The notes beneath the pieces are model-generated. The model saw only the letters and a list, made by a program, of their open reading frames with translations. It was not told where the DNA came from and made no database searches. Below are positions 5,618 through 19,905 of a stretch of DNA of 64,000 nt, in pieces. Both the position numbers and the translations under genes were made by a program. Numbering within the stretch: position 1 is the first letter of the stretch; every line of letters begins with the position of its first letter. This DNA is from a virus: positions 1 through 64,000 of IMG/VR virus record IMGVR_UViG_3300017783_000015; one strand, 5' to 3'.

Positions 5618-5639
5618 GAACTATTTTTGATAGGTATAA

Positions 5640-6938
5640 TTAAAAGGTAGTGGCACTTGTTTCAAACGAATAGAGTGCATATCGAATCGCGTCTGCCATG
5701 TGAGACGCATAGTTATGTTTAGGTTTTTCTTTTAATAGATTTGGATTTGGATCCCACTGATATTGGTCTAAACAAAGTAATGATTCTTTACAACCTTGAT
5801 GAACGAAAAGTTGGTCATTATCTACTATACCTGCTACTGCTCCGATGCCATCTAGTACTGACTTTTTGGCATTAATAGTGCTAATATCATAGTTTTGTGC
5901 AAAGTCAAATCTTGTTTGTTGAGCTGCAGAATCTATGTAAATGTAGTCTATGTCCCACTTAATTATAAGTTTGTTAATTTCTATTGCATGCTGTTCAGTA
6001 GTTCGTTCACTATCTAAATATTCGTCTACTAAATAGTATTTATCTGCGTCCCAGTCATACGCAATCACACAGAAAGCTGTAGGATCTTTGTACCCTACGT
6101 CCATTCCTGCAAAAATATCCATTCTTCCAGTTTCTAGTTCGGATAAATCTGCAATCTGTGTTTCATGATTAAATGCCCATACCTGACCTTCAAAAACATT
6201 GAAGTCAGCCATATATTCCTGATTAAATTCAGCTTCTGACATCGTCTTTTTAGCTTCGTCAATATCTGTTTGTGATAATCTAGGATTTTCGTGATAAGTT
6301 GCTCGTACTGAAGCCCACTCTGGGAACTCATCGCTGAATCCTCTATGCCAGAACTCTGCAAACCAATTATTTCTACCCCGTGGAGTTGAGATAAATATAG
6401 CTTTAGAGTTTTCTTTATCTAGTGTAGGTCTTAGTGCTACATTGAAAGCATCTCTGCCATCAACAAGAGCCGCTTCATCAAATATGATGAGATCATAACT
6501 TCTACCTACCACAGAGTCTACTTGGTTAACAGAACCCATACGAATTGTTGAGCCATTTGATAGCTCAATAACTTTATCTTTTGCATTATCTCTAGTAACT
6601 TCTAAATCAAAGTGTTTAATCAGTTGTCTTTGTAAATCAAATGAGATTTGTGATAAAGAGTAGTTAGGCGACATAAGTAAAACATTAGAACCTGGTACTA
6701 ATGTGATTAATTGTCCTATAATATTTGCAATATAAGTTTTGCCCTGCCTACGAGAAATCGCAGCACATACAAATCTATATTTGGGGTTGTTTATAGCGTT
6801 GATCAACGCTGTTTGTGATGAATTAGGCTGAACGCCTAGTAAGTCCATGTAACCATTAATAGGTAACTTTATAAATTTTCTTTCATCAAATGTCATTAGT
6901 TCATCACTAAGGACATCTTTTCTGCTAATGGTTATCAA
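5640..6938 (-). CDS. terL: Terminase large subunit
   Basis: A 432-residue packaging motor. The ATPase part shows a Walker A variant SRRQGKTY near residue 62, Walker B LIIFDEAAL near residue 150 and the coupling motif ISTPRG near 183. The RNase H-like nuclease part shows FAGMDVGYKDPTAF near 275, YIYIDSAA near 335 and SHMADAIRYAL near the C-terminus, giving the three acidic positions of the nuclease. It cuts concatemeric DNA and pumps it through the portal. The start overlaps the small gene to its right by 4 bases. Confidence 0.95.
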   Translation of the reverse strand: MITISRKDVLSDELMTFDERKFIKLPINGYMDLLGVQPNSSQTALINAINNPKYRFVCAAISRRQGKTYIANIIGQLITLVPGSNVLLMSPNYSLSQISFDLQRQLIKHFDLEVTRDNAKDKVIELSNGSTIRMGSVNQVDSVVGRSYDLIIFDEAALVDGRDAFNVALRPTLDKENSKAIFISTPRGRNNWFAEFWHRGFSDEFPEWASVRATYHENPRLSQTDIDEAKKTMSEAEFNQEYMADFNVFEGQVWAFNHETQIADLSELETGRMDIFAGMDVGYKDPTAFCVIAYDWDADKYYLVDEYLDSERTTEQHAIEINKLIIKWDIDYIYIDSAAQQTRFDFAQNYDISTINAKKSVLDGIGAVAGIVDNDQLFVHQGCKESLLCLDQYQWDPNPNLLKEKPKHNYASHMADAIRYALYSFETSATTF

Positions 6939-7171: not shown

Positions 7172-7183
7172 ATTTTCTCCTTT

Positions 7184-7474: not shown

Positions 7475-7475
7475 A

Positions 7476-8308: not shown

Positions 8309-8498
8309 TTCTTTCTCCTATAAGCTTTTTAATTTGCTTATCCCGAAAATTACACTCCTGCATAGTTGCGTAATTTTTCATTTTTACTAATTGGGAGAGG
8401 GCTCTGCGTCTTGTTATTACTACAGTAGCCACGGTTTTTTCAATCGCCGAAAGCTGTTGAGTCATTTCAAACTTTTTAGCTAGTGTGCGACTGTTCAT
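8301..8498 (-). CDS. Small helical protein of unknown function
   Basis: A 65-residue mostly helical protein, basic, with a cysteine at about residue 51. It overlaps the basic gene downstream by 8 bases and abuts the one upstream, so it belongs to the same operon. Nothing more can be said from sequence. Confidence 0.6.
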   Translation of the reverse strand: MNSRTLAKKFEMTQQLSAIEKTVATVVITRRRALSQLVKMKNYATMQECNFRDKQIKKLIGERNG

Positions 8499-8786
8499 TT
8501 ACCTTCTCCTTCTTCGTGTTGTTTTTCTTTTTCGTTTAACAAAGGTTGATACGTTTCTAGGTTTGCCACCAGGATTACCTGCTCTCCTCTTGCGTGTTAC
8601 TGCAGATCGTTTCTGCGCCGAAGTCATTCTTCGAGCTTTACTAGCTGGTACGCATTTGGGATAGCCTCCCTTACTTCGTGCGGATTTTCTTCCACACGGA
8701 GGATGTCCTCCTCCTTTTCTCTTACGAGAAATATCTACCCAACCTTCTTTGAACCATTTTGTTAGTCCACCTTTAGGTTTTGCCAT
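8499..8786 (-). CDS. DUF5872-like small basic protein
   Basis: A 95-residue protein with WFKEGWVDISRKRKGGGHPP, then CGRKSARSKGGYPKCVP and KARRMTSAQKRSAVTRKRR, ending in a run of arginines. This resembles DUF5872, a small basic family shared by phages and giant viruses; two cysteines are retained. The charge implies nucleic-acid binding. It is part of the basic-protein run between terminase and the methyltransferase. Confidence 0.75.
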   Translation of the reverse strand: MAKPKGGLTKWFKEGWVDISRKRKGGGHPPCGRKSARSKGGYPKCVPASKARRMTSAQKRSAVTRKRRAGNPGGKPRNVSTFVKRKRKTTRRRRR

Positions 8787-8983
8787 TACTTCCTTCTTTT
8801 ACGTCCAGTACCCATACGATACCTTCCGCCTTTGGCTTTGTAAGTTTTTACTAGCCATCCATTAGCATATGCTGATGGGTATACCTTAAACTTTCTCTTT
8901 GCTTGTGCTTTTACTCTTGCATAAAGAGTAGGGTTTGTAGGTACTGGCCTTTTCTTAGCGGCCTTTCTTCTTTTTCTTGCCAT
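8786..8983 (-). CDS. Small basic protein (YPSAYANGWLVK type)
   Basis: A 65-residue Lys/Arg-rich protein carrying the motif FKVYPSAYANGWLVKTYK, which recurs in small basic proteins of marine phages and large viruses. The ends are KRR clusters. It overlaps the next gene by one base. Confidence 0.7.
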   Translation of the reverse strand: MARKRRKAAKKRPVPTNPTLYARVKAQAKRKFKVYPSAYANGWLVKTYKAKGGRYRMGTGRKRRK

Positions 8984-8999
8984 TGAATCTCCTCAATGC

Positions 9000-9023
9000 A
9001 TAGTGGGCGTTTCAGCCCACTAT
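9000..9023. other. Intergenic hairpin
   Basis: ATAGTGGGC and GCCCACTAT form a perfect 9 bp stem with a 6-base loop in the gap between two leftward genes. No T-run follows on either side, so an mRNA-processing or stabilising hairpin is more likely than a terminator. Confidence 0.5.
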
Positions 9024-9036
9024 ACCCCCGAAATGT

Positions 9037-9213
9037 TTATTTATCTTTCGCTTTGCCAACATTTAAGGCAAACCAGTCAACTAGTTTATAGACTTTCTTC
9101 ATCCAACCGTCATCTATAGGGGTTGGAGTTAAAGCTGCTATTAGAGAACAGATCATTACTATTGTTGGTAATACTGCTATCCATGCTTGGAGCCATTCAA
9201 AGAATCCTAACAT
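9037..9213 (-). CDS. Small one-helix membrane protein
   Basis: A 58-residue ORF starting MLGFFEWLQAW. Residues about 8-30 (AWIAVLPTIVMICSLIAAL) form one membrane segment, followed by a charged C-terminal part with WMKKVYKLVDWFALNVGKA. A ribosome site (GGAGAT) lies upstream. Size and shape would suit a holin-like or virion-associated membrane protein, but no family is assigned. Confidence 0.6.
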   Translation of the reverse strand: MLGFFEWLQAWIAVLPTIVMICSLIAALTPTPIDDGWMKKVYKLVDWFALNVGKAKDK

Positions 9214-9262
9214 ACTTATCTCCTATCGTACTAAAAAGTACTCCTTGCGATGTATACGCGTC

Positions 9263-9838
9263 CTAGTAGCCTTGGCCACCTGGATTATCCTGCAAAGTGT
9301 CTAATTGACCTCTCCACAGACCTTCCTTATTCACTTTGTTTCCATGGCTAAAAAACCAAGGTAACCCAGTAACATAAGTATTTAAGATCCTCTCGAGTCG
9401 AGTTTTATGCTCTATCTTCACTGTGCATCTATACAGCTTTTTACAACTGTAATCGACAACATATAAACCGCCAAACAGGCCGTCATTATTTTCTAATTTT
9501 CTTGCTTCGTCTAAATTCTTAACACAAATGGTATTGAAAGTGTCATGTCCAAATTGAAATGACTGTGCGTTGTTATTTGCGTCTCGAGTGATCGTTATTA
9601 CTTCATTACGAACGCTAATTGTATGTGCATCAGCCCAGATACAGAACGGTTGTAAACCTATAGCTTGTTGGTTAGTTCTGCTTTGTCCTTCTAATTTTTC
9701 CCATGTTTCTTTTTTGAAGAATCTAGTATTTCCTCTTCTAGAGAATAAGTCACCATACAACACTGGCACTTCCCTATCATTTGGAACTGCGTTATCGTTG
9801 TAAAATGCTCTTGCTATTTGATATGGTGTTTTTTGCAT
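9263..9838 (-). CDS. Hypothetical protein in the late operon
   Basis: A 191-residue soluble protein, mixed in charge, ending in DNPGGQGY. No domain was recognised. It may be a virion protein because it sits among late genes. It follows a 125-base gap that holds a structured element (9857-9935). Confidence 0.65.
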   Translation of the reverse strand: MQKTPYQIARAFYNDNAVPNDREVPVLYGDLFSRRGNTRFFKKETWEKLEGQSRTNQQAIGLQPFCIWADAHTISVRNEVITITRDANNNAQSFQFGHDTFNTICVKNLDEARKLENNDGLFGGLYVVDYSCKKLYRCTVKIEHKTRLERILNTYVTGLPWFFSHGNKVNKEGLWRGQLDTLQDNPGGQGY

Positions 9839-9856
9839 AATTCTTTGTAGAAGGGC

Positions 9857-9935
9857 GGATTGGAGACCCCTCGATATTTTTCCGTGTCATGATATAATAT
9901 CATGCTTTTGCGTTTAGTATAAGGTCATCCAATCC
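9857..9935 (-). other. Structured leader element between late genes
   Basis: GGATTGG (9857-9863) pairs with CCAATCC (9929-9935), GACC (9865-9868) pairs with GGTC (9923-9926), and an inner perfect palindrome CATGATAT-A-ATATCATG lies at 9888-9904. Together they fold the 5' region of the 9263-9838 gene into a long hairpin. It could be an mRNA processing or translational control element. Confidence 0.45.
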
Positions 9936-9962
9936 TAAATTGTTGATCACCTCCTCGGTAAA

Positions 9963-10136
9963 CTACTTGCAGGGTTTGTTTCTTTTACGAATTCCTGACT
10001 GTAAAGCTTTTGGTAATTTCTTCTGCGCTGCAGATAAACAAGGTTTGAGTCCGCTCATACCTTTTTTCTTTTTACCTTTTCCTTTCTTCTTTGGTCGGCC
10101 TCTTTTAGAGCCGTAAGTTCCTTTGCCTCTTGGCAT
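9963..10136 (-). CDS. Tiny Lys/Gly-rich basic protein
   Basis: A 57-residue ORF starting MPRGKGTYGSKRGRPKKK, with SAAQKKLPKALQSGIRKR later and two cysteines (near residue 33 and the end). The make-up resembles the basic proteins in the same operon and an AT-hook-like GRPKK is present. Nucleic-acid binding is likely. Confidence 0.65.
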   Translation of the reverse strand: MPRGKGTYGSKRGRPKKKGKGKKKKGMSGLKPCLSAAQKKLPKALQSGIRKRNKPCK

Positions 10137-10147
10137 ACTTCATCTCC

Positions 10148-10336
10148 CTAAGTCCAACGAGGTGGCTCGTCTGGACACTCAGCCCATCGTAGTTTTGTTT
10201 TGAGGGGCATAAAACAGTGACAAATCTTACAAGTTTTCCAAAACTTACTATAGTTTGGACACTGTTCACAAATCTTTAATCTTTCTTTATGTGACTTTTT
10301 ATTCGAAGTCCGCGTACCAATTCGTTCCATATTCAT
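10148..10336 (-). CDS. Small zinc-ribbon protein
   Basis: A 62-residue protein with CEQC near residue 23, CKIC near residue 35, a cysteine in CHCFMPLKTKL and a final CPDEPP. The phrase CKxCxCFMxxKxKL recurs in small phage zinc-binding proteins. The first 13 residues overlap the methyltransferase gene, so a later start is possible. Confidence 0.7.
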   Translation of the reverse strand: MNMERIGTRTSNKKSHKERLKICEQCPNYSKFWKTCKICHCFMPLKTKLRWAECPDEPPRWT

Positions 10337-10802
10337 TTAATTTATTAGTCCACCATTCTTCGTTATGTAGACTTACATGAAAATTAGTACCATCACTAAA
10401 CTTTTTAATTGCTGGTTTAGTATCAATATGAAAATACACAGAGTTTCCTAAAAAGAATATTGAGTGTAGTACACTATCGACTTCTTCTGGTAGTATGTGT
10501 TCCATCACATCTACACATAGTACTAAATCGAAAAAGTTACATTTATATCCTGCTAGTTTATTATACTTAGCTACGTAAGGATCGTATAGTGTTGGCATTG
10601 GTATACCCCAATCTTCGTGTACATTCTGTCGAGTGTACTGCCAACCTTTACCACAACCAAAGTCTAAAACATTGACAGGATTTACTCTGTCTATAACTTT
10701 CTTAATTATATCTTTGTTCTTTACTGTTGTTCTACCACTCATTGTAGTAGTGTTTTCATGAACCCAGACATACTCTTTAGCAAGTCTTTCCTTATCGATC
10801 AT
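10299..10802 (-). CDS. Class I SAM-dependent methyltransferase
   Basis: A 167-residue protein with the SAM-binding motif VLDFGCGKGWQY near residue 40 and a following acidic strand. FFDLVLCVDVMEHILPEEVD near residue 92 is the usual post-motif strand and helix of small-molecule or RNA cap-type methyltransferases. No DNA-methylase motif (DPPY or PCQ) is seen, so DNA is an unlikely substrate. The start overlaps the upstream basic gene in ATGA. Confidence 0.8.
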   Translation of the reverse strand: MIDKERLAKEYVWVHENTTTMSGRTTVKNKDIIKKVIDRVNPVNVLDFGCGKGWQYTRQNVHEDWGIPMPTLYDPYVAKYNKLAGYKCNFFDLVLCVDVMEHILPEEVDSVLHSIFFLGNSVYFHIDTKPAIKKFSDGTNFHVSLHNEEWWTNKLNEYGTNWYADFE

Positions 10803-10957
10803 CTTGTTCTTTTACGATTAGGGTTGTGTGATCTTCTCTTTAAATTTTTCTTTCTAGCAAGTAATCTTTTCATTCTGCTAGTAAGTTCTGGAGACTCATT
10901 CTTTTCTTCTGAGTGCTCCACTGCCTTTTTCAAGGCTTCTTTTATTTCGTTAGCCAT
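10799..10957 (-). CDS. Small charged basic protein
   Basis: A 52-residue ORF starting MANEIKEALKKAVEHSEEK and ending in HNPNRKRTR. It is a helix with an acidic first half and a strongly basic tail. It is coupled to the methyltransferase by an ATGA overlap and to the gene upstream by a 16-base overlap. Function unknown. Confidence 0.6.
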   Translation of the reverse strand: MANEIKEALKKAVEHSEEKNESPELTSRMKRLLARKKNLKRRSHNPNRKRTR

Positions 10958-11124
10958 GTAAGTGCTTCCTGTTTAGTTTTAAATATTTGGTGGTCTATTC
11001 CATCTCCTTTTAGATGCCATAGTCCTCTTTTTTCATAAAGTTCTACACCTTCAGGTACTTCTGTTTTTACCTTTTTCATTTTAGGTGCTTTTGTTATATC
11101 TTTTTTAGAATAATCTAATTCCAT
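10942..11124 (-). CDS. Small hypothetical protein
   Basis: A 60-residue protein with a basic N-terminus and a small beta-like part (GLWHLKGDGIDHQIF). A ribosome site (GGAG) precedes the ATG. No family recognised. Confidence 0.55.
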   Translation of the reverse strand: MELDYSKKDITKAPKMKKVKTEVPEGVELYEKRGLWHLKGDGIDHQIFKTKQEALTWLTK

Positions 11125-11133
11125 TGTTTTCTC

Positions 11134-11331
11134 CTATGAGTGCATACTCCATATTGTAAATATGACGGTTGCTGCTCCGACAATAACCCCACCAGCTGCA
11201 GAAATCAGTATTGTTTCTACACGCTTTAAGCTATTATCCATGTCGTCAAAGCGGTTAAATGCAGTTTTCCATCGCTCCGCGCAGACTGCTTCATGCCTAG
11301 CTAGATCGTTTGCCACTTGTTCAGCGTCCAT
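11134..11331 (-). CDS. Small protein with coiled coil and C-terminal membrane helix
   Basis: A 65-residue protein. Residues 1-40 are an amphipathic helix (FNRFDDMDNSLKRVETIL); residues 42-62 (SAAGGVIVGAATVIFTIW) are a membrane segment. The layout resembles phage holin-associated or haemolysin-XhlA-type proteins, facing the cytoplasm. It is the first gene after a strong leftward promoter. Confidence 0.6.
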   Translation of the reverse strand: MDAEQVANDLARHEAVCAERWKTAFNRFDDMDNSLKRVETILISAAGGVIVGAATVIFTIWSMHS

Positions 11332-11373
11332 TTGTTACTCCCTTTTCTTAACTTTTGTATTAAATACATGATA

Positions 11374-11402
11374 ATTATATCAAATTACCAACCTGATGTC
11401 AA
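11374..11402 (-). promoter_or_regulatory. Sigma-70-type promoter, leftward
   Basis: TTGACA, 17 bp, TATAAT on the minus strand, with AAAATAGTAC immediately upstream. The TAG in that block is the stop codon of the adenylate cyclase gene. It drives the genes from 11331 leftward. Confidence 0.85.
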
Positions 11403-11405
11403 GTA

Positions 11406-13190
11406 CTATTTTCGTATGGTATAGATTTTTACAGGTTCTGACTTACCTTTTACAGTTACCTCGTCAAGAAACTCATAATCATAACCATCTACTAAACTGT
11501 GCTCAGATATAATTAAGTCAGCATCATATTCTTTACAGCTAGATTCTAGTCTAGCAGCCAAATTGACGCTATCACCAAGAACGCTGTAATCAAAGCGAGT
11601 GCTGCTGCCAAAGTTTCCAACGACACAGTCCCCGGTGTTGATTCCCGCTCCTGTATTAATCTCATCCAAGCCTTCTTCTCTGAGTTTTTCATTTAACTCC
11701 TCCAATGCCACTCTCATTTCGAGAGCTGCCTTTGTTGCATTTTCGACATGATTCTCGTCTGGACACGGCGCTCCCCAAAATGCCATGATGCAATCTCCCA
11801 TATATTTGTCTATTGTTCCCCCATGCTTGAGAATAATCTCAGTCTGATTATCAAGGAAACGATTAATGAGGCTCGTAAGTCCTTGTGGATTCTTTTGGTA
11901 TTTTTCCGAAATCGGGGTAAATCCTCGTATATCAGAAAAAAGAAAAGTGAGTCGTGAAGTTAACCCACCCAATCTCAGTAATGTTGGGTCTTCCTGTAAT
12001 TTTTTTACTAAGTCGGGACTAACGTATGTCCCAAATTGTTGTTTGATTCGAAGTTTCTGTTGATACTCCGATAGGAAACTCAGAAAGGTATGAATACTCC
12101 AAAAGAGAACGGATATAATTACGATTCCACTAACGTCAAGCAAGTAAGAAGATTTATATAGATGCCAGGCTCCATATAAACTTCCTCCAGTTATCAGTAA
12201 TAGTGCGGGAACGGAAAGCCAGACTGACCTTGATGCAAAAGCAAGTATTATCAGTGCTAGTAGTGTTGCGATGATTTCTGCTCCTGTAGCCCAAGTTGGT
12301 TGGCTAGGTGCGGTTCCTGTAATTAGATTGTGTAGAATGTTCGCTTGGATTTCGTGTGGGTATTTAGCCCCCGCAGGGGTCGGCACTGGGTTAGTTATAC
12401 CCTCTGCAGTCGTGCCGAATATAACGAACGGAGCTTCTATTGGTTTCTTAAGAAACTCCAGTCCGCTTTGTTTGTAAAACTTCGTATTCCAATTTAAAAA
12501 GATACGACCATTCGCATCTGTATTCATCAGTGGGTAGTTTGGGATTCTTATCCAATCAATACCTTCTGGTGTTGTTTTTAGCTGGTACGAAGGATCGTTT
12601 ACGGCGACTCTTAAGAGTTCCAAGGCGAAACTCGGGTAAAGTTTTGACTGCACGTTTACGACTAGGGGAATGCGACGAGTAACCCCGTCTATTTCCGGCG
12701 TAGCGGTTACTACTCCGATTCCCTTTGTTTTTGACTCCAGCGTAGACGCGGTAGGTAAAATTCCTGGTAGTTCGAATAGCCATGGTAATGGGTCCTCTCC
12801 TAACTGAGCAGTACCTACATGAGGGTTTGTCCCAGTTACTTGTGTCGATGCTGCTGAAGCAAGGACTGTTGGTATGTATTGCATTCGCATAGCAAAGTAA
12901 TTATCATAATCTTTACCACGAATGTCGGGGTTTGGCATCAAGATTGTAAAACCTGGTACGGCCTGTGTAGTAGTGATTAAGTCACCAAACACTGACCTAG
13001 GTAATGGCCATCCGCCATAAGTCTGTAGAAAATCTTCATCAAGATCAACTATCAGAATGTTCTCGTTCTGTACTGGTTCGGTATTCATGATTAAGTAGTC
13101 GTAACCAATTAGTTCGACTCTTTGCATGACACCAGGATTCCATATAAGCAATCCCATAAACAGTACTATTGTGATAACTTTATTTAGCAC
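11406..13190 (-). CDS. CHASE2-domain transmembrane adenylate cyclase
   Basis: A 594-residue membrane signalling enzyme. After an N-terminal signal anchor, residues about 30-310 read as a CHASE2 extracytoplasmic sensor (VDLDEDFLQTYGGWPLPRSV is typical). Two or three membrane helices follow at about 305-375, then a class III cyclase domain at about 415-590. The domain is complete: FSDIRGFT holds the first metal Asp, DKYMGDCIMAFWG the adenine-selecting Lys and second metal Asp, and LGDSVNLAARLE the substrate Asp plus the transition-state Asn and Arg. It should therefore make cAMP. In bacteria CHASE2 cyclases often neighbour FecR proteins, as here. A phage carrying one is unusual. Confidence 0.93.
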   Translation of the reverse strand: MLNKVITIVLFMGLLIWNPGVMQRVELIGYDYLIMNTEPVQNENILIVDLDEDFLQTYGGWPLPRSVFGDLITTTQAVPGFTILMPNPDIRGKDYDNYFAMRMQYIPTVLASAASTQVTGTNPHVGTAQLGEDPLPWLFELPGILPTASTLESKTKGIGVVTATPEIDGVTRRIPLVVNVQSKLYPSFALELLRVAVNDPSYQLKTTPEGIDWIRIPNYPLMNTDANGRIFLNWNTKFYKQSGLEFLKKPIEAPFVIFGTTAEGITNPVPTPAGAKYPHEIQANILHNLITGTAPSQPTWATGAEIIATLLALIILAFASRSVWLSVPALLLITGGSLYGAWHLYKSSYLLDVSGIVIISVLFWSIHTFLSFLSEYQQKLRIKQQFGTYVSPDLVKKLQEDPTLLRLGGLTSRLTFLFSDIRGFTPISEKYQKNPQGLTSLINRFLDNQTEIILKHGGTIDKYMGDCIMAFWGAPCPDENHVENATKAALEMRVALEELNEKLREEGLDEINTGAGINTGDCVVGNFGSSTRFDYSVLGDSVNLAARLESSCKEYDADLIISEHSLVDGYDYEFLDEVTVKGKSEPVKIYTIRK

Positions 13191-13690
13191 GATACATTTA
13201 CGCCTGTAATATGATGGTAATTAAAATCTCTGCATTCTGAAGCCTCTTCATACAAGTAAAAGTTTCTTATTATTACTGCTGCAAGAATCCAGTTTGTAAG
13301 CACCATTTGCTCCTCTTCTAAGTTAGCTGCTATAATTGGAGTTAATACAGATTTGTGTAGTAAAAATTCTGCAGCAGACGGCTTTTCCGGCAGTAAAAAG
13401 TTGGCTTCCTTTATGTGCGGGTTGTTTCTAGTAAACACATATGAAGTTGTCATGTCGACCGCATTGAGAATATAGTAAGCTCTTAGTGTTCTCTTAGTGG
13501 GTTCATTGTTTATCTTTATAAATCTAAGACGCTTTTTCTCAGCAGCTTCTATTTGAACAGAGTCTTGCTTCATCTGTTCATAGTTGAATGGAGTTTCAGG
13601 TAGTGTTAAATCTAAGCTATCCGCTTGATTGTTTGACGCTAATAGTAACATCGGCACCATTACCAACGACAACATTGTAAGCTTTGCCAT
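13184..13690 (-). CDS. Exported protein of unknown function between FecR and cyclase
   Basis: Start chosen at MAKLTMLSLVMVPMLLLA, which is a signal peptide; an in-frame start 12 codons earlier is possible. The mature part has a helical segment with LNAVDMTTSYVFTRNNPHI and later AANLEEEQMVLTNWILAAVI, perhaps one membrane helix, and ends with a cysteine. The signal peptide is encoded inside the overlap with the end of the FecR gene, and the stop overlaps the cyclase start by 7 bases. It may link the periplasmic FecR part to the cyclase; this is inference. Confidence 0.7.
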   Translation of the reverse strand: MAKLTMLSLVMVPMLLLASNNQADSLDLTLPETPFNYEQMKQDSVQIEAAEKKRLRFIKINNEPTKRTLRAYYILNAVDMTTSYVFTRNNPHIKEANFLLPEKPSAAEFLLHKSVLTPIIAANLEEEQMVLTNWILAAVIIRNFYLYEEASECRDFNYHHITGVNVSC

Positions 13691-14720
13691 CTTGTTCCAA
13701 TATAATGTTATATCCAGTTTGTCCATTTATATCTAACCTTACACTTTGATTTACTTCTCGAATGAGAGTAAGAAACTCTGCATCTCCAAAAGTTGTAATC
13801 TGTGTGCTTGCATCTTGTCCGAATGTAGTACCTTTTAAATCTACAGGTGCTGCTCCAACGGATGCGAGTTCATTATTATCTAGTTCATCTACTGATTCTA
13901 TTATTTCTAGTAGATCTTCCAGGAAGTTAGTTCCTAGGTAGTCTATGTCAAGTTCTCGAAAGTCTTCCTCTACTTCTAATAAGTCTACATCGAGCCCGTC
14001 GTAAGCGAGGTAGTCGATATCAAGAATATTAGTACCAGAGTCGTCACTTCCAGACGATCCCTCATTTTGTTGTATTTCTTCATTTTTCTTAGGTGGTGAG
14101 ACAATCAAAAGATTGTCTATCAGATCTAGTGTTAAGTCGAGGATAACAGGTTTAGTAGGACTCTGTTCCCATACAGTTGTAACAGTAGATTGATACGGTT
14201 TATTTAGTATTACCTGTCCTAAAGCAGTTGCTACTACAATCTCGCCAGAGGGCAGTCCGTTTGCATCTGGTAAGAGTATCACCAATGACTTACCGAACTC
14301 GTCAACGGTAACAGTAAAGTCTGTTCCTCGAATTGCGATTTGTGCTGTTGGTGTACTAATGTTGATATTCTGTTTGTTTATCTGTCCTATCTTACCAGTA
14401 ATAAATCGAGCAGTGCCACTTGCAAATTGCATACTCATCTTTGACTTGTTTGGATTTGGGTCAAAGATTACTTCGTCTATAACAAGTTTGCTATGCTCTG
14501 TGAGTCGAACTTGACTATCGTCTATGAATGTGATACCTAGTCGCCCATTAGCTGTACGCACATCATCCATTTGTTGAATGTCTTGTTCTAAAGTTGCAGG
14601 TAAGGTGTCATCTCGAATGACGGCACCTTGCCCGCGTAGTTCCGTGATTGCGCCTATATCAGCAAGAAGTGGATGTACCACCATCAGACTGAATAACACA
14701 GATGTTACTGTTTGACGCAT
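13617..14720 (-). CDS. FecR-domain periplasmic protein
   Basis: A 367-residue exported protein. A signal peptide (VTSVLFSLMVVHPLLA) is followed by a FecR domain at about residues 25-160, with GQGAVIRDD, DDVRTANGRLGITFIDDS, VRLTEHSKLVID and ISTPTAQIAIRGTDFTV. The FecR fold occurs in signal-transfer and adhesion-related surface proteins. Residues about 210-290 are a strongly acidic Asp/Leu/Glu-rich linker with repeated LDIDYL. No membrane helix is seen after the signal. The first 62 bases overlap the curlin-like gene. Confidence 0.85.
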   Translation of the reverse strand: MRQTVTSVLFSLMVVHPLLADIGAITELRGQGAVIRDDTLPATLEQDIQQMDDVRTANGRLGITFIDDSQVRLTEHSKLVIDEVIFDPNPNKSKMSMQFASGTARFITGKIGQINKQNINISTPTAQIAIRGTDFTVTVDEFGKSLVILLPDANGLPSGEIVVATALGQVILNKPYQSTVTTVWEQSPTKPVILDLTLDLIDNLLIVSPPKKNEEIQQNEGSSGSDDSGTNILDIDYLAYDGLDVDLLEVEEDFRELDIDYLGTNFLEDLLEIIESVDELDNNELASVGAAPVDLKGTTFGQDASTQITTFGDAEFLTLIREVNQSVRLDINGQTGYNIILEQDGKAYNVVVGNGADVTISVKQSSG

Positions 14721-15372
14721 CGCTCTCTATTTTTAACCAATCGAGTGCTAGTGTTGATTTTTGTTGTATTTCAATAGTATTTGTACTACCATTTAAATCC
14801 AAGTAAAAATAACCTGCATCACTCGATGAGGCTCCTTGACCAGTTTTGGTCAATTCCATTGTATTACTATCTCCTAAGATATCCATATACGCAGTATAGT
14901 AGTCAGAGTCTATATCGAATGTTAAATCGTTACTGTCTCCGTCTAGTATTAGATCTAAGTCTAAATAACTTGCTCCTGCATTTTCACCGATGTCCCAATC
15001 AAAAACGTTTGAGCTACCTGTTACATCTACATTGATGTTTGCAAAGTCAACTGTATTTAGTCCTGTAGTATCCATAGAAAACTCGAATGTATTTGAATCT
15101 CCATCAAATTCGAAGAAACCAGTAAAGTTTTCGCCTAATACACCGTCAGTTAGAAATTTATTTGAAGAACCAATCTGGTTAATATCCAATGTCCATGTAC
15201 CACCGTTTAAGATAGCTTTTGTCATAGAACCGCTTGTTGCATCGTCACCACCAATAAGGTTGTTCGATCCTAGTTGCTCTAAGTCAATATTGACATTGTT
15301 TCCAGTTTGATCTATGTAAATTTCATTGTCTGCATATAAACCAAAGGATAGTAATAAAAGTAATATTCTCAT
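14659..15372 (-). CDS. Curlin-repeat-like secreted protein (CsgA/CsgB-type subunit)
   Basis: A 237-residue protein with a short signal peptide (ILLLLLSFGLYA) and then seven or more repeats of 20 to 30 residues built on hydrophobic-x-hydrophobic-x-x-G-x-x-N. Examples are YIDQTGNNVNIDLEQLGSNN, DINQIGSSN, FDGDSNTFEF, DVTGSSNVF, LDGDSNDLTF, ILGDSNTMEL and LNGSTNTIEI. Curli subunits have the same Q-x-G-x-x-N ladder. The protein is rich in D, N, G and S and has two cysteines at its end. It sits directly after CsgG, so it is the likely cargo of that pore. Confidence 0.8.
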   Translation of the reverse strand: MRILLLLLSFGLYADNEIYIDQTGNNVNIDLEQLGSNNLIGGDDATSGSMTKAILNGGTWTLDINQIGSSNKFLTDGVLGENFTGFFEFDGDSNTFEFSMDTTGLNTVDFANINVDVTGSSNVFDWDIGENAGASYLDLDLILDGDSNDLTFDIDSDYYTAYMDILGDSNTMELTKTGQGASSSDAGYFYLDLNGSTNTIEIQQKSTLALDWLKIESDASNSNICVIQSDGGTSTSC

Positions 15373-16238
15373 TACTTCTCTCCCCAGTACTTCCAGTACC
15401 CTTTCTCTTTGCCGTCTTTTATCAATTGAACTACTGCAGTTTCAAGCGCTGCTTGTATTGCAATAGATTTACTTTCATTCATTGCAGTTCCGCTTTCAAA
15501 CTCTACGAGCTTTGTGCCTTCTGCTATAAACCTAAAGAAGTCATTTGATACTCCGACAGAGAGTATTTTCTTTGACGTAAGGATTTCCATTAAGATCTCT
15601 CCTGTACTCACAGAAACTAGTCTTAATGAGACCACTACGGTATCCTCACGATATTGCTTGGAGTTACCAATGCCTAAATATCTAGCACCTATACCTCCTG
15701 TTAATAGATTAGTGTTATAATCTACTATTCCCCCTTCAATGATTAATCCAGCAAACAGTAGTGGAAGCTGCTCGTCTTCATCATTAAAACTTTGTCTAGT
15801 CTGTCTTATTAATTGTCTTTCTCTAGTTAAGTGGTCAAGGCCACCTCTTTCGACAACTTTGAAGAATCCAGACTGTTTGAGTGCTCTTATGAGGTATGTC
15901 TCGGGAGCCATAGTAACAGCAGTACTGAAACTAGCTATACCATCGACACTCTTTCTTTGTCCTGTTGAATCTGTAAATTTGTATACGGCCACCACGGGAT
16001 ATCGTGATGGTTGTGGAATTGTTTTAATTGCATCTGTAACTGGCGTATTGATAATAGCATCTCCAGAAAAGCATTGCGCTTTTCCGATAATAGTTACAAC
16101 ATCTTTATAGTCTTCGTCTGGATTTGTTAAGCAAGGTGACACATATTTGTAATGTGTAAAGTTTGCACAACTAGCCAGTAGGAAAACCGAAGTCGCCAAT
16201 AGGGATTGTAATGACAGTCGTTTCACCAGTAGCCTCAT
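15372..16238 (-). CDS. csgG: CsgG-type outer-membrane curli secretion channel
   Basis: A 288-residue lipoprotein. The signal peptide ends in the lipobox LLASC, giving an acylated cysteine near residue 24. The mature part follows CsgG: PVVAVYKFTDSTGQRK near 82, SFSTAVTMAPETYLIRALKQ near 104, FFKVVERGGLDHLTRERQ near 125, then GGIVDYNTNLLTGGIGARY, which corresponds to the pore loop region, and VSLRLVSVSTGEIL. CsgG forms the nonameric secretion pore of the type VIII (curli) system. The first 68 bases lie inside csgF, and its stop overlaps the curlin-like start. Confidence 0.93.
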   Translation of the reverse strand: MRLLVKRLSLQSLLATSVFLLASCANFTHYKYVSPCLTNPDEDYKDVVTIIGKAQCFSGDAIINTPVTDAIKTIPQPSRYPVVAVYKFTDSTGQRKSVDGIASFSTAVTMAPETYLIRALKQSGFFKVVERGGLDHLTRERQLIRQTRQSFNDEDEQLPLLFAGLIIEGGIVDYNTNLLTGGIGARYLGIGNSKQYREDTVVVSLRLVSVSTGEILMEILTSKKILSVGVSNDFFRFIAEGTKLVEFESGTAMNESKSIAIQAALETAVVQLIKDGKEKGYWKYWGEK

Positions 16239-16665
16239 TAAATATGGTCATTGTAATTGATATACCATCTGATGTCCATGTAATCAGATTATCAAACAAC
16301 ATGAATGATCCTTCCGATGCAGGGTTTTCTCCGAACAACTGGTCTACTAGCTGTCGAGATAACTGTGCGTATACTCTACTCTCAAAGTTCTTTATAAATC
16401 TTGCGAGAGTACTATTATTTTCCTCTCGTTCTGCGGCTTCTTTGAGTGCTTTAATTTCTGCGGCGATTGCCTCTTTTCTTGACATCTCTTGTGAGTCAAT
16501 TGTAAGATAGTGGCTAGATGTACCTACACCACTGAATGAAGGATTTTTAAATCCAAACTTTATTTCATCCGCGTTTAAGTCTGCTGCAATTGCTATAAAG
16601 CTTAATATAAATAAAGCTCCTATAACACTATTTGCAACTCTGTTATTTAGTTTTCTTTCGTTCAT
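16171..16665 (-). CDS. csgF: CsgF-type curli assembly factor
   Basis: A 164-residue exported protein. After a signal peptide the mature N-terminus begins near DEIKFGFKNPSFSG, which matches the conserved F-x-F-x-N-P-x-F-G start of CsgF, the part that plugs into the CsgG channel. A helical middle (FIKNFESRVYAQLSRQL) and a C-terminal beta part with GETTVITIPIG follow, again as in CsgF. It couples secretion to fibre nucleation at the cell surface. It overlaps csgG by 68 bases. Confidence 0.9.
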   Translation of the reverse strand: MNERKLNNRVANSVIGALFILSFIAIAADLNADEIKFGFKNPSFSGVGTSSHYLTIDSQEMSRKEAIAAEIKALKEAAEREENNSTLARFIKNFESRVYAQLSRQLVDQLFGENPASEGSFMLFDNLITWTSDGISITMTIFNEATGETTVITIPIGDFGFPTG

Positions 16666-16906
16666 TTTCTTTTAACTGTAAAACTGTGTCCAGTTTCTTT
16701 TGCAGTCGTATCATGTCATTATCCAACATTCTTATCTGGTCGATAAGTTGTAGTATGGTAATTTTCATTTCTTCGATTGCTGGGTCTATCTTCTCGGTCA
16801 CTGTAGTCCATACGAAGTATACGAAATATCCAAGTCCAACCATTGCAACAACTGGAAATCCAAATTGTTGTATGGCATCAATCACGTCTTGCATCGATAC
16901 TCCCAC
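16643..16906 (-). CDS. Small membrane protein with coiled coil, paralogue of next gene
   Basis: An 87-residue protein: a membrane helix at about 15-36 (FPVVAMVGLGYFVYFVW) then a long amphipathic helix (ILQLIDQIRMLDNDMIRLQKK). It resembles the neighbouring protein at 16878-17174 in layout and in the L-x-N-D-M-I motif, so the two are likely duplicates. Phage holins and lysis regulators can look like this; the place beside csgF may instead tie it to the secretion module. Confidence 0.65.
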   Translation of the reverse strand: MGVSMQDVIDAIQQFGFPVVAMVGLGYFVYFVWTTVTEKIDPAIEEMKITILQLIDQIRMLDNDMIRLQKKLDTVLQLKENERKKTK

Positions 16907-17174
16907 TTTCTACAAAGTTTTCTGCTCTTGCTATTTTTTCTAAGTCTGGTGCAAGTCCCAGCGCGGATGATACACTCATATCTATTTTAATCATATCATT
17001 GTTCATAACTTTGATACGAGTAATTAACATCTTAGAGATTCCTCGAACTTCTTCTGTATCTCCAACAACGTCATCCATAATCTTTCTTATGATGAGAAAT
17101 ATAAAACCACCCATAAACAGTGCTGCAGCGATAGGTGCTCCAACTTGTCCGATTACGTCAAATATCTCACTCAT
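16878..17174 (-). CDS. Small membrane protein with coiled coil
   Basis: A 98-residue protein starting MSEIFDVIGQVGAP. Residues about 12-30 (IAAALFMGGFIFLIIRK) are a membrane segment, followed by a helical part with TRIKVMNNDMIKIDMSV. It is a paralogue of the protein at 16643-16906 and overlaps it by 29 bases. Confidence 0.65.
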   Translation of the reverse strand: MSEIFDVIGQVGAPIAAALFMGGFIFLIIRKIMDDVVGDTEEVRGISKMLITRIKVMNNDMIKIDMSVSSALGLAPDLEKIARAENFVESGSIDARRD

Positions 17175-17410
17175 AAGTACTTAATCATTTCTTGATTGAT
17201 TGCCATACATCCAAACATGCCAAATAGTACAGTAACCTGTATAATACTTGCATAAGTAATTTGTCTCATTGGATGCATATCTGTTAACTTCTCTATCATG
17301 CTTTCTGATGGCGATAGGTTAACTATTTGTAATGCTTTCCTAGAAGCCGATGCTTTCTCCGCATCCACATCTATATGTTTCTTTTGGGTTGTTAAATCTG
17401 AATTCTTCAT
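17171..17410 (-). CDS. Small protein with C-terminal membrane helix
   Basis: A 79-residue protein with a polar N-terminus and a membrane helix near the end (ITYASIIQVTVLFGMFGCMA). The chosen start lies inside the iscA-like gene (71-base overlap); an internal Met about 38 codons later is an alternative. It overlaps the next gene by 4 bases. Confidence 0.55.
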   Translation of the reverse strand: MKNSDLTTQKKHIDVDAEKASASRKALQIVNLSPSESMIEKLTDMHPMRQITYASIIQVTVLFGMFGCMAINQEMIKYL

Positions 17411-17657
17411 TTAGTCCGTCCGTGTGCCAATCAATAGTCATGCCTTCTAAATAAGGCGCAGAGTTAGGGTCTACCCTAAATCTAATCTTGCCCCAATCTA
17501 TTACCAGATCATCTGAATAATTTTTAGGGTTAAAAGCAAAAAGATACTCCATACCACCGCAGCCACCCCCAGTAATACCAAGTCTAAAAACAAAGTTGTC
17601 TTCTGCGCTCGCTTTCTGTATAAGTTTAGTATACGCCTCATTAGTAATTTCTATCAT
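17340..17657 (-). CDS. iscA: IscA/HesB-type iron-sulfur carrier
   Basis: A 105-residue A-type carrier. The family's three cysteines are present: one in TGGGCGGMEY near residue 33 and the pair in YRCGCGESIGF at the C-terminus. A-type carriers take iron-sulfur clusters from the scaffold to target enzymes. HesB-like genes are known in marine phages. It directly follows iscU, so the phage brings scaffold and carrier together. Possible client proteins in this window are the radical SAM enzyme at 43692 or host proteins. Confidence 0.9.
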   Translation of the reverse strand: MIEITNEAYTKLIQKASAEDNFVFRLGITGGGCGGMEYLFAFNPKNYSDDLVIDWGKIRFRVDPNSAPYLEGMTIDWHTDGLNEEFRFNNPKETYRCGCGESIGF

Positions 17658-17731
17658 CTATCTAATTTAAATAGTCTCCAAACATTTTGTATTCTGCTTG
17701 CTTTCATAAATTTGTGTATTTTTCTGAACAT
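17654..17731 (-). CDS. Tiny basic peptide between iscU and iscA
   Basis: A 25-codon ORF (MFRKIHKFMKASRI start) with a strong ribosome site GGGAGGAT four bases before its ATG. It overlaps the end of iscU and the start of iscA, so it may act mainly to couple their translation. Confidence 0.35.
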   Translation of the reverse strand: MFRKIHKFMKASRIQNVWRLFKLDR

Positions 17732-18120
17732 TTATCCTCCCAGTTCTGAATAGCCTTTCTTATTGCGTCTTCGGCTAGAACTGAGCAGTGAATCTTTATT
17801 GGCGGCAACTGTAGTGCCTCGGCAATATCTTTGTTCTTAATTTCTTTTGCTTCTTCTATAGTAAGTCCTTTTAACATATCTACAAACATTGTAGAAGACG
17901 CGATAGCTGAACCGCATCCATATGTTTTAAATTTTACATCAATGATTTTTTCTTGTTCGTCAAGTTTAAGTTGTAACTTCATGACATCACCACAAGCGGG
18001 TGCTCCTGTCATTCCTGTAGCTATATCGGGGTCGTTCGGGTCAAAACGGCCTACGCTAAATTGCTTAGGACTGTTCAGTACTCCTTCGAACCTTTCGATA
18101 ACTTCTTTACTATATGCCAA
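17704..18120 (-). CDS. iscU: IscU iron-sulfur cluster scaffold
   Basis: A 138-residue protein that follows proteobacterial IscU closely: TGMTGAPACGDVMKLQLK carries the first Cys and the Asp, TYGCGSAIASS the second Cys, and LPPIKIHCSVLAEDAIRKAI the His and third Cys together with the chaperone-binding LPPxK. All cluster ligands are intact. The level of likeness suggests recent or well-conserved capture from a proteobacterial host. No cysteine desulfurase is in the window, so host IscS must supply sulfur. Confidence 0.93.
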   Translation of the reverse strand: MAYSKEVIERFEGVLNSPKQFSVGRFDPNDPDIATGMTGAPACGDVMKLQLKLDEQEKIIDVKFKTYGCGSAIASSTMFVDMLKGLTIEEAKEIKNKDIAEALQLPPIKIHCSVLAEDAIRKAIQNWEDKCSEKYTNL

Positions 18121-18304
18121 TTTTCTTTATACCAAATACATAGTTTTCAGCTGCATCTTCTGCATACGCTTCACTATGTCCTTTGTAAAATTCGGTAGCT
18201 ACTAATACACCCTCTGGGTTGTAGAATCTAGCACCAAATACTCCTTTGTCTACGATTGTGTCGGCTCGTAGATTGCCACTCATGTACGTTGATAGTTCTT
18301 GCAT
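18110..18304 (-). CDS. Small hypothetical protein upstream of iscU
   Basis: A protein of 64 residues starting MQELSTYMSG, with a small beta-rich part (VFGARFYNPEGVLVATEFY) and a helix. The chosen ATG has GAGGAAA six bases upstream; an ATG four codons earlier also exists. It overlaps iscU by 11 bases. No family recognised. Confidence 0.6.
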   Translation of the reverse strand: MQELSTYMSGNLRADTIVDKGVFGARFYNPEGVLVATEFYKGHSEAYAEDAAENYVFGIKKIGI

Positions 18305-18319
18305 TTTTTTCCTCATATT

Positions 18320-18772
18320 TTATTTCAACAACTTCTCCATCAGTTTGCCATAGTTGCCTTGCCCGAAAGGGAGTTCGTTGATCTGTACATTTGTCTGATT
18401 TTTGACATTTGAGGTTTTTGCTTTTTCTAGTTCTGCCATAGCTTTGATTTCATCCATACGCATTTTGTGTGCCATTTGTATTAAATCCGCTAGGTCTTTG
18501 TTAGTATAAATTTGAGATTCTTCGCTCTCTTCTAGTTTGCGCTCAATAATATCGTCAAGTGTGTTTGCTAATTTAAAACGATTTCTGTAACCTGTATCTA
18601 GATACACTTGATCGATGTACGCTTTGATTTCCCGTTTTCCTAAAAATTCTTGCACGGTGTTTTCATCTATTTTCATTCTGGCGCACACGGCTGGTATGCT
18701 TCCTAATTCTAGATAGTTGTTCGCTATTTCAAGCCCTTCTGGACTCATCTTGGTTACAATTTCATTTTTCAT
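18320..18772 (-). CDS. Terminase small subunit-like or other HTH protein, leaderless
   Basis: A 150-residue protein starting MKNEIVTKMSPEGLEIANNY. An N-terminal helix-turn-helix (LELGSIPAVCARMKIDENTV) is followed by a long helical part, as in many small terminase subunits, but sequence evidence is thin. The ATG lies exactly 6 bases after a perfect TATAAT, so the mRNA should start at the ATG. An upstream in-frame extension exists but would span the promoter. Confidence 0.6.
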   Translation of the reverse strand: MKNEIVTKMSPEGLEIANNYLELGSIPAVCARMKIDENTVQEFLGKREIKAYIDQVYLDTGYRNRFKLANTLDDIIERKLEESEESQIYTNKDLADLIQMAHKMRMDEIKAMAELEKAKTSNVKNQTNVQINELPFGQGNYGKLMEKLLK

Positions 18773-18778
18773 ATTTTG

Positions 18779-18807
18779 ATTATACCAAATTTTAATCCTC
18801 GTGTCAA
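18779..18807 (-). promoter_or_regulatory. Sigma-70-type promoter, leftward, leaderless output
   Basis: TTGACA, 17 bp, TATAAT with AAAATACTTC upstream. The start codon of the 18320-18772 gene is 6 bases beyond TATAAT. This is the likely main promoter of the IscU-curli-cyclase operon. Confidence 0.85.
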
Positions 18808-18888
18808 GAAGTATTTTCGTATGCATCGTCACGATGCTCTGTGCGCGTCTTTTTACTCTTTTCCAAAAAATCCAAAAGTCGTACGCGC

Positions 18889-18934
18889 AGGGGGGTGTGG
18901 GCGAGACAGGGGAGCAAGGTCTACTAACCCCCCT
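18889..18934. repeat. G-rich inverted repeat
   Basis: AGGGGGGT at 18889-18896 is matched by ACCCCCCT at 18927-18934. The G-tract is striking in this AT-rich genome; similar GC-rich stretches occur at 22810 and 23392. It sits between two leftward transcription units and may stop or stall transcription, though no T-run follows. Confidence 0.5.
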
Positions 18935-18944
18935 ATCATATATG

Positions 18945-19127
18945 CTAGACTGTGTCAACTGTTCTTTCAAGAAAACTGCCAAAGGGCGATTCTTGAAGGC
19001 TCACTACTTGACATCTATTATCAAATCTTTTCTTTTGCTCATCACAGATTTTTTCTGCTATTGCTTTTGCTTCTTCGTCATTCTCACACCAAATATTTAA
19101 TGAGAATTCTACTCTATATCTTTCCAT
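18945..19127 (-). CDS. Small hypothetical protein
   Basis: A 60-residue protein (MERYRVEFSLNIWCENDEEA) with a strand-helix-strand layout of a short ferredoxin-like part. A good ribosome site (GGAGGG) precedes it. It follows the leaderless gene to its right in the same transcript. Confidence 0.6.
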   Translation of the reverse strand: MERYRVEFSLNIWCENDEEAKAIAEKICDEQKKRFDNRCQVVSLQESPFGSFLERTVDTV

Positions 19128-19128
19128 A

Positions 19129-19266
19129 TTATTTGCCCTCCAATTTAATTTTTAGCTTATGGATTCTATTTGAAATATTGAAATACATTTTTGAGCCAAC
19201 TCTAACTTGCTTTCTAGCTTTGAGCCAAACTTGAATTTCCCTTTCCATTTCTTTTTTCGTTTTCAT
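19129..19266 (-). CDS. Small basic leaderless protein
   Basis: A 45-residue ORF starting MKTKKEMEREIQVWLKARK, basic and helical. Its ATG is 6 bases after TATAAT of the promoter at 19273-19301, so the mRNA lacks a leader. No function can be given. Confidence 0.5.
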   Translation of the reverse strand: MKTKKEMEREIQVWLKARKQVRVGSKMYFNISNRIHKLKIKLEGK

Positions 19267-19272
19267 AATATA

Positions 19273-19301
19273 ATTATACACTCCTTATTTTAAATTTGCA
19301 A
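19273..19301 (-). promoter_or_regulatory. Leftward promoter, leaderless output
   Basis: TTGCAA, 17 bp, TATAAT on the minus strand. It lacks the AAAATAGTTC block. The ATG of the small basic gene is 6 bases further on. Confidence 0.65.
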
Positions 19302-19327
19302 ATCTTTTTTTCTTAAAAACTTGAACA

Positions 19328-19392
19328 TGGTTTAAAATTTGTTTACCCTTCGGGTTAATCTAAACTTGTTTAGATAAACAAATTTTAAACCA
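19328..19392. repeat. T-shaped inverted repeat, left copy
   Basis: Outer arms GGTTTAAAATTTG (19329-19341) and CAAATTTTAAACC (19379-19391) pair perfectly. Between them are two small hairpins: ACCC-TTC-GGGT (19345-19355) and ATCTAAAC-TT-GTTTAGAT (19358-19375). An inverted copy lies at 22051-22109, with the outer arms identical and the inner hairpins altered but still paired. Confidence 0.85.
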
Positions 19393-19404
19393 CGAACGCC
19401 TTTT

Positions 19405-19478
19405 TGTCAACTTTTGTGACAGATTATTTTTCGGGTTTCTCATACACGATTTTAGCAAAAATGTCAAATTTTGTGACA
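19405..19478. promoter_or_regulatory. Two operator-like dyads
   Basis: TGTCAACTTTTGTGACA (19405-19421) and TGTCAAATTTTGTGACA (19462-19478) differ at one base and each is a TGTCA-N7-TGACA dyad. They sit upstream of the promoter at 19508-19536 and look like repressor or activator sites. Confidence 0.6.
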
Positions 19479-19507
19479 GAATTTTTTGCGAACTTTTGAG
19501 AAATGTT

Positions 19508-19536
19508 TTGCAAACTTTAGAGAAAAGATTTATAAT
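19508..19536 (+). promoter_or_regulatory. Promoter of the island genes
   Basis: TTGCAA, 17 bp, TATAAT, about 40 bases before the first island ORF and just after the two dyads. Confidence 0.65.
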
Positions 19537-19574
19537 TTATATATTGTTAATAATTAAATGGAGACAATATAAGA

Positions 19575-19646
19575 ATGGAAATATTTTTAATACCTATGGG
19601 ACTGCTAATACTAGCAATCGGATTTATGATTAATGGGGGAAGATAA
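19575..19646 (+). CDS. Tiny hydrophobic peptide
   Basis: A 23-residue ORF, almost all membrane helix (FLIPMGLLILAIGFMI), with GGAGA upstream and a TAATG overlap with the next gene. Likely a small membrane peptide. Confidence 0.5.
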   Translation: MEIFLIPMGLLILAIGFMINGGR

Positions 19647-19861: not shown

Positions 19862-19905
19862 AGATGTTGACCTTTAGCAACAACATCACAAATGGAGAAA
19901 ATATT

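Follow-up and report, generated by a model that had tools for sequence, protein, structure and literature searches.

The stretch of DNA analyzed here (the window) comprises 64,000 of the 64,873 bases of IMG/VR virus record IMGVR_UViG_3300017783_000015 and carries on its minus strand a set of genes for CsgF, CsgG, a curlin-like protein, a FecR-domain protein, a DUF5658-family protein and a CHASE2-domain cyclase. Judged from the encoded sequences, the balance tips slightly toward a phage-borne curli-type (type VIII) secretion module that lacks CsgE and is coupled to a FecR-CHASE2 cyclic AMP (cAMP) sensor. Modules of this kind have already been published; what is new is a T5-like siphovirus as the home, a third type of tailed phage, together with features that sharpen the model. 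A published, unexplained phage module is thereby extended to T5-like siphoviruses. A concrete, testable model follows from the curlin-like end of the FecR protein, from the pairing of FecR with CHASE2 in bacteria that are not related and from a bacterial operon that shares this core; these findings also speak against two published labels, 'iron-dependent regulator' and 'histidine kinase'.

A first-pass annotation of this DNA had described five parts in one overlapping leftward operon and had proposed a fiber-secreting pore with a cAMP sensor. The open reading frames (ORFs) of the module were recovered where it had placed them, all leftward and with adjoining ones touching or overlapping; families and order stood, while a sixth ORF (DUF5658) and two small membrane proteins had been missed. 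The pore-and-sensor proposal is still the most natural reading and is supported by the family assignments, as the matches of CsgF, CsgG, FecR, CHASE2 and Guanylate_cyc all lay above the curated Pfam cut-offs. A profile of the CsgG family retrieved the Escherichia coli CsgG structures from the PDB (1.9e-69), and the lipobox cysteine, Cys24, was invariant (18/18). The window thus holds the CsgG lipoprotein subunit and the CsgF partner of CsgE-less (alphaproteobacterial-type) type VIII secretion. The CsgE cap that marks E. coli-type curli was found in none of five records, namely phage records and three cellular carriers, of which the metagenome-assembled genomes (MAGs) may be incomplete; an E. 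coli control gave a positive match in the same search. Compared with the E. coli curli system (csgBAC-csgDEFG), the CsgG and CsgF families and a curlin-like cargo are common to both, whereas in the window phage no CsgE was found, FecR and a cyclase are added and the curlin is highly diverged. Cellular CsgF homologues were of a length like that of phage CsgF and aligned with it over the mature protein, which argues against phage CsgF being a phage novelty, contrary to a suggestion in PMC9004378.

The candidate cargo of the pore is the curlin-like protein. Twenty of 28 family members matched the Pfam curlin repeat at E ≤ 0.1 (best 1.3e-8), and the window copy holds seven GxxN motifs as against 2.4 in shuffled sequences (p 0.005) and two QxGxxN motifs as against 0.07 (p 0.002). 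A structure model with a predicted local distance difference test (pLDDT) score of 83.7 was all-beta and matched beta-solenoids, with the E. coli CsgA fibril 8enq at Z 10.7 over 109 residues and a root-mean-square deviation (rmsd) of 8.9. The solved curlin 8c50 was reached by sequence at just E 0.45. Many loci collected with the cyclase as bait carry a second curlin before the cyclase, in some cases alongside a DUF5658 gene; since some loci hold both, the second curlin is absent from the window rather than renamed. In pelagiphage HTVC008M a long non-curlin N-terminal part precedes the repeats of the second curlin (locus L034, 10638-11963).

The FecR-domain protein begins with ~20 residues that form a signal-peptide-like helix, followed directly by the mature protein (hydropathy and model). 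Residues 49-207 of its model superposed on PupR 6ovk, a cell-surface signaling domain, at Z 15.3 and an rmsd of 2.7 over 137 residues. The periplasmic domain of a PupR/FecR regulator is therefore represented; the N-terminal cytoplasmic anti-sigma domain that would precede the helix is missing, with no room for one, and iron or sigma regulation by this protein was rejected. The C terminus was compared across families using the pattern [VI]x[VI]xQ followed by 0-3 residues. This ending was present in all 50 complete phage FecR proteins, in 18/20 second curlins and in 7/53 members of the first-curlin group, where the last glutamine mostly lies further from the end. Among 491 complete members of eleven other families from the same loci it was never seen, and a looser pattern occurred once. 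Cellular FecR proteins carried a curlin-like terminal strand in two of three copies, and in a small control of cellular FecR proteins not linked to curli the strand was found in none of the five complete within their locus. We read the ending as a curlin-type terminal strand that may tie FecR to the fiber; an equal reading is that it could be a secretion signal common to the curlins. As the window FecR lacks the anti-sigma part and the C terminus of the phage FecR proteins is a curlin-like strand, the label 'iron(-dependent) regulator' is probably wrong.

The cyclase matched CHASE2 (4.8e-32) and Guanylate_cyc (9e-21) in Pfam. The first-pass annotation had seen a complete set of catalytic residues, and this was borne out: D420, K462, D466, D540, N543 and R547 are intact and were conserved in 84-85 of the 87 rows aligned; otherwise 2-3 rows have gaps, and D540 and N543 are each substituted once (in L029 and L035, respectively). 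We take these positions to be the two metal aspartates, the Lys/Asp pair that reads the base (adenylate specificity) and the Asn/Arg pair. By domains and residues the protein is a class III adenylate cyclase with a CHASE2 sensor, and as judged from its sequence it probably makes cAMP. Its catalytic domain matched PycC (best 1.5e-29) over just the shared catalytic domain, and PADLOC returned no hit for the eight other proteins given. Pycsar defense is a less favored reading, only the catalytic domain being common.

Upstream of CsgF the unit includes two paralogous small membrane proteins, each with one hydrophobic helix. From position, size and number they are probably the 'histidine kinase' of PMC9599517. 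Neither has a HisKA or HATPase domain: no kinase domain was hit in Pfam at E 1 by either window protein or in NCBIfam by the two together with the Melnitz homologue, and no conserved histidine was present in the small-protein alignment. The label is not supported for these proteins. Relatives of small protein 2 were found in six of 50,697 phage records, the same six that matched FecR and the full-length cyclase. The family was absent from the whole genomes of the three cellular carriers and was found in both MAGs with phage-like module contigs that were searched together with them. Matches to a holin family were weak (E 0.039 and 0.063). The DUF5658 assignment comes from the family, with 15/24 members matching at E ≤ 1 (best 1.4e-5); the window copy alone gave no hit.

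The conservation of the module was assessed in loci collected by bait genes. For the CsgG bait, 7/32 loci were dropped as near-duplicates to leave 25 non-redundant viral loci; in the set of 111 viral-contig loci and two reference phages, 27/113 were so removed. Loci with short flanks were left out of the CsgG, CsgG-plus-cyclase and terminase counts, and incomplete ORFs out of the FecR-ending and substitution-rate counts. Among the CsgG-baited loci, each of the 13 with both flanks contains CsgF, curlin, FecR and the cyclase, 10 of them with two small proteins and three with one; the set is therefore no chance assembly, an outcome that the first-pass annotation had named as a refutation. Where the right flank was present, 18/18 CsgG-baited loci hold curlin, FecR and cyclase, and with CsgG and cyclase baits combined the set was present in 28/28 loci with both flanks, the cyclase-baited loci holding the cyclase by construction. 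With the terminase as an independent bait, the cyclase was present in 13 of 14 non-redundant near-relative loci with at least 6 kb upstream, a cut picked after the list had been seen, and in 23/38 with at least 2.5 kb, the window cyclase lying 4.5 kb upstream of the terminase. In the one exception (L143) the interval up to the next conserved gene is 723 bp long and contains no cyclase match. Each of the two baits, cyclase and terminase, returned the best 80 of ~600 relatives, and these frequencies thus describe near relatives. Because the module looks near-fixed upstream of the terminase among them, it probably matters for infection.

Ratios of nonsynonymous to synonymous substitution (dN/dS) were calculated against the window for 11-25 homologues per gene, keeping synonymous distances of 0.15-1.5 and including overlapping genes unmasked. 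The medians were 0.15 for CsgF, 0.16 for CsgG, 0.15 for curlin, 0.24 for FecR and 0.19 for the cyclase, with 0.095 for the terminase; those of the small proteins were 0.08-0.12 (some comparisons mix the two paralogues) and that of the DUF5658-family protein was 0.51.

The window matched a record of 105,272 bases (G001) at 99.9% identity over its full length. The ends of G001 have ~77 bases in common, which suggests that it is a complete circularized assembly. The terminase was 47.9% identical to that of Pectobacterium phage My1 and 47-48% to those of Vibrio phages, matches that we take to be T5-like, and the portal was ~40% identical to those of the closest phages. By eye, G001 holds a 1379-residue tape-measure-like ORF and a 2687-residue tail-tip-like ORF in siphovirus fashion. 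From the terminase, the portal and these tail ORFs the phage is called a T5-like siphovirus. Positions 1000-20000 of the window had no megablast-level match in an annotated phage collection, and the window offers no tRNA clues to the host.

Cellular counterparts were sought among 45 genome loci with a CsgG relative. Three of them (L205, L207 and L209) hold CsgF, CsgG, one or two curlins, FecR and the cyclase, and none has the small pair. L205 is a 705-kb contig of Hyphomonas sp. TMED17 and the other two belong to Caulobacteraceae MAGs; by eye, the neighbors are ordinary bacterial genes. These caulobacterial operons share the core order of the window and a similar CsgF length, and differ from it in the missing small pair and in a longer C terminus of the cyclase, as is also found in Melnitz. 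The cellular operon is rare. A FecR profile detected 7/398 genomes of the order at 1e-20, with just the Hyphomonas genome below 1e-24; 2/299 genomes of the family at 1e-30, both already known carriers; and 14/385 of the class at 1e-30, the other 13 of which scored no better than 2e-36 over profile positions 7-257 alone. A 92-row CsgG tree placed the copies from the three cellular operons within the phage rows and away from 25 ordinary alphaproteobacterial CsgG proteins. Holding the 64 phage-type rows together was not rejected (approximately unbiased test, p-AU 0.205), and long branches meet there; transfer may have run from phage to cell or from cell to phage. The 11 rows labeled 'otherphage' in this tree include short contigs that may well be T5-like, the 16 labeled 'MAGphage' are bacterial MAG contigs presumed to be viral from small proteins or close CsgG kinship, and of the 45 genome loci L245 is absent from the tree. 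The MAG-bin contigs L202, L203, L204, L206, L208, L210-L216, L218, L220, L227 and L243 resemble binned phage contigs; the bins are Pelagibacter, Maricaulis, Synechococcus, Bacteroidota and others, with the module whole or partial. The 1,499-base 'Salmonella phage' record OR851715.1 also encodes CsgG and may be host DNA.

The first-pass annotation had cited csgGF-like genes in marine phages but had taken the whole set with cargo and cyclase to be unreported, and in this it was mistaken. The HTVC008M record runs from two small genes through CsgF, CsgG, a curlin-associated gene, a FecR homologue ('hypothetical') and a 'hypothetical' with curlin-like repeats to the cyclase, and the Melnitz-3 record has the same order with both curlins and FecR annotated. 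CsgF, CsgG, CsgA/B, FecR and adenylate cyclase are described in podo- and myophages by Wittmers 2022 (PMC9599517), where transfer between virus families and roles in superinfection defense, aggregation or uptake were proposed. The pore genes are described in PMC7029224 and PMC9004378, with sibling capture, uptake or lysis control as proposals; csgG is reported from seawater and reef phages (PMC11309003, PMC7003362), the available passages of which do not mention this set, and csgGF from sediment viruses (PMC9636769). Gene order in the pelagiphage type VIII module (Pelagibacter phage HTVC008M, Methylophilales phage Melnitz) is as in the window: small gene(s), CsgF, CsgG, curlin, FecR, a variable gene and the cyclase. 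The variable slot holds a second curlin in HTVC008M and Melnitz but a DUF5658-family protein in the window, and the published carriers are myo- and podophages whereas the window phage is a T5-like siphovirus; no published report of the set in T5-like siphophages was found in the literature searched. In bacteria, FecR stands beside a CHASE2-kinase in Burkholderia biofilm operons (PMC5192318) and within Campylobacterota CHASE2-cyclase clusters (PMC9239204). As in the window, a FecR-domain envelope protein is encoded beside a CHASE2 sensor; curli genes are not mentioned in the available passages on these operons.

In the preferred reading a strong host-type promoter would drive the unit, and CsgG with CsgF would form an outer-membrane channel. 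The curlin-like beta-solenoid protein would be exported and held at the surface as a fiber, which the periplasmic FecR may join or cap by its C-terminal strand. FecR would in this way bring its PupR-like domain to CHASE2, which is periplasmic too, so that the cyclase might raise host cAMP according to fiber export or envelope state. The small membrane proteins, so far encountered in the phage version alone, would have their role at the inner membrane. In a bolder version the parts form one machine, in which FecR would be no iron regulator but a reporter with a curlin tail, capping or nucleating the fiber; export status would be passed via CHASE2 to cAMP in the infected cell, and the small pair would be a phage-made addition for rewiring. 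This version is speculative, and the specific fiber-to-FecR-to-CHASE2 link is likewise doubtful. The most likely use, weakly supported, would be to alter the surface and physiology of the infected cell during virion production.

Several observations weigh against secretion coupled to sensing. Melnitz-infected cultures showed no clumping by cytometry or transmission electron microscopy (PMC9004378), and this is the strongest argument against fibers. The window curlin scored under the Pfam cut-off when searched alone (Curlin_rpt E 0.032). Its repeats lack the glutamine past the second QxGxxN, and Foldseek found no match of its model in the PDB at E 0.001. The FecR model is of modest confidence (pLDDT 69.5), and the cellular FecR of L205 is without the C-terminal strand. 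The FecR-CHASE2 contact is deduced from co-occurrence alone; in Sinorhizobium meliloti the signal behind CHASE2 cyclase activity was perceived without need of a FecR-domain protein of the cAMP regulon (PMC5498481), and therefore FecR need not feed CHASE2. Finally, no cNMP-binding protein that could serve as a phage-encoded cAMP receptor was found in the phage, so any cAMP effect needs a host receptor.

The last point also bears on the least improbable of the alternatives, namely that cAMP is the main product of a signaling device that shifts host metabolism or defense, with the curli parts as its antenna. The retention of the cyclase residues, the match to Pycsar cyclases and the finding that S. 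meliloti CHASE2 cyclases respond via the outer-membrane protein NsrA (PMC13001267) speak for it. Note, however, that the Pycsar matches span the shared domain alone, and that CsgF, CsgG and curlin have median dN/dS values no higher than that of the cyclase. Next in rank, and unlikely, is the use of the CsgG/CsgF pore as a lysis device, as proposed for Melnitz, by late opening, envelope leak or depolarization and timing of release. PMC9004378 argued this from gene order and modeled pore width, but also relied on missing cargo genes and on a CsgF unlike that of E. coli; the Melnitz-3 record annotates two curlin-repeat genes, curlin is present in all 13 loci with both flanks, and the similarity in length and alignment of cellular CsgF (sequence alone) was described above. 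The two small proteins resemble a holin family weakly, yet small protein 2 is confined to so few phage records that it is unlike a general holin. A lysozyme-motif ORF lies within ~1.2 kb after the cyclase in three non-redundant loci (L023, L027 and L031, the last with a Pfam match of 1.9e-47), whereas the likely lysozyme of the window phage (31223-31699, plus strand) lies ~13 kb away on the other strand, which weakens lysis control, one of the uses first suggested, for this phage. The module as a lysis cassette was thus rejected, the likely lysozyme being outside the unit, and the link in three other loci being lineage-dependent.

It could also be that the pore serves the uptake of larger nutrients or cofactors, sensed by FecR/CHASE2, as was proposed in PMC7029224 and PMC9599517, and this we consider quite unlikely. 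The failure to find CsgE, the periplasmic cap, and the NifU/IscA genes upstream would fit such a role. Uptake leaves the conserved curlin genes, CsgF and the curlin-like FecR end unexplained, however, and since the three cellular carriers likewise yielded no CsgE, the lack of this cap does not point to uptake. That the module is passive cargo, a hitch-hiking bacterial operon useless to the phage, is scarcely credible: related copies do exist in rare caulobacterial genomes, but the core genes have dN/dS values well under 1 (0.15-0.24), the near-fixation upstream of the terminase among near relatives (13/14) speaks against it, and the loss of core genes that would be expected was not seen in the 13 loci with both flanks. 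Type VIII secretion coupled to cAMP sensing is preferred to these alternatives.

The features of the region are listed in Table 1. Read along the minus strand, the order is NifU_N, IscA, a 79-residue ORF, the two small membrane proteins, CsgF, CsgG, the curlin-like protein, the FecR-domain protein, the DUF5658-family protein and the CHASE2 cyclase, and the entire stretch may be a single transcript. Perfect TTGACA-17-TATAAT sites number 15 in the window as against 0.01 expected from shuffling, and many of the 15 have an AAAA-rich spacer. The NifU and IscA genes adjoin the module, often just before it, in many relatives; in L214 the second curlin and the cyclase flank them.

Table 1. Features in and around the module, with positions counted from the first nucleotide of the window.
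Feature	Position	Strand	Basis or remark
Perfect sigma-70 promoter-like site, TTGACA-17-TATAAT, TG before -10; upstream of unit	18779..18807	-	motif scan
NifU_N Fe-S scaffold protein	17704..18120	-	match 7.9e-40
IscA-type Fe-S biosynthesis protein	17340..17657	-	match 1e-14
Small membrane protein 1 (98 aa; one hydrophobic helix, then hydrophilic tail; phrog_18771)	16878..17174	-	
Small membrane protein 2 (87 aa; paralogue of protein 1; phrog_18771)	16643..16906	-	
CsgF (type VIII secretion, CsgG partner)	16171..16665	-	Pfam 3.2e-19
CsgG outer-membrane lipoprotein	15372..16238	-	Pfam 3.7e-49
Curlin-like cargo (putative); signal-peptide-like start, GxxN repeats, predicted beta-solenoid	14659..15372	-	
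FecR-domain protein; signal-peptide-like start, PupR-like domain, curlin-like C-terminal strand	13617..14720	-	Pfam FecR 2e-11
DUF5658-family protein, between FecR and cyclase	13184..13693	-	start 13693 probably preferable to 13726
CHASE2 class III cyclase; GTG start, hydrophobic peaks at residues 5, 301 and 355	11406..13190	-	
Perfect sigma-70 promoter-like site directly after cyclase, for next gene	11374..11402	-	motif scan
Small protein with C-terminal helix	11134..11331	-	directly 3' of cyclase in most T5-like relatives
Large terminase, T5-like; lineage marker	5640..6938	-	sequence match

Rfam gave no match anywhere in the window, and a glutamine riboswitch of the Melnitz type was rejected for that reason, a result that also counts against the lysis device. 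The likely endolysin, with a lysozyme motif, lies at 31222-31701 on the plus strand; by eye it is near the phage lysozyme matched by Pfam in L031, and a small heat-shock-like ORF (by eye) at 30680-31060 precedes it. On the minus strand, a prohead protease (S78) and the capsid are fused in a single 685-residue ORF (1680-3737), and at 8036-8983 four small proteins stand in a row, most of them rich in Arg/Lys and perhaps belonging to the head or binding DNA; the one at 8499-8786 matches phrog_23735 (function not assigned).

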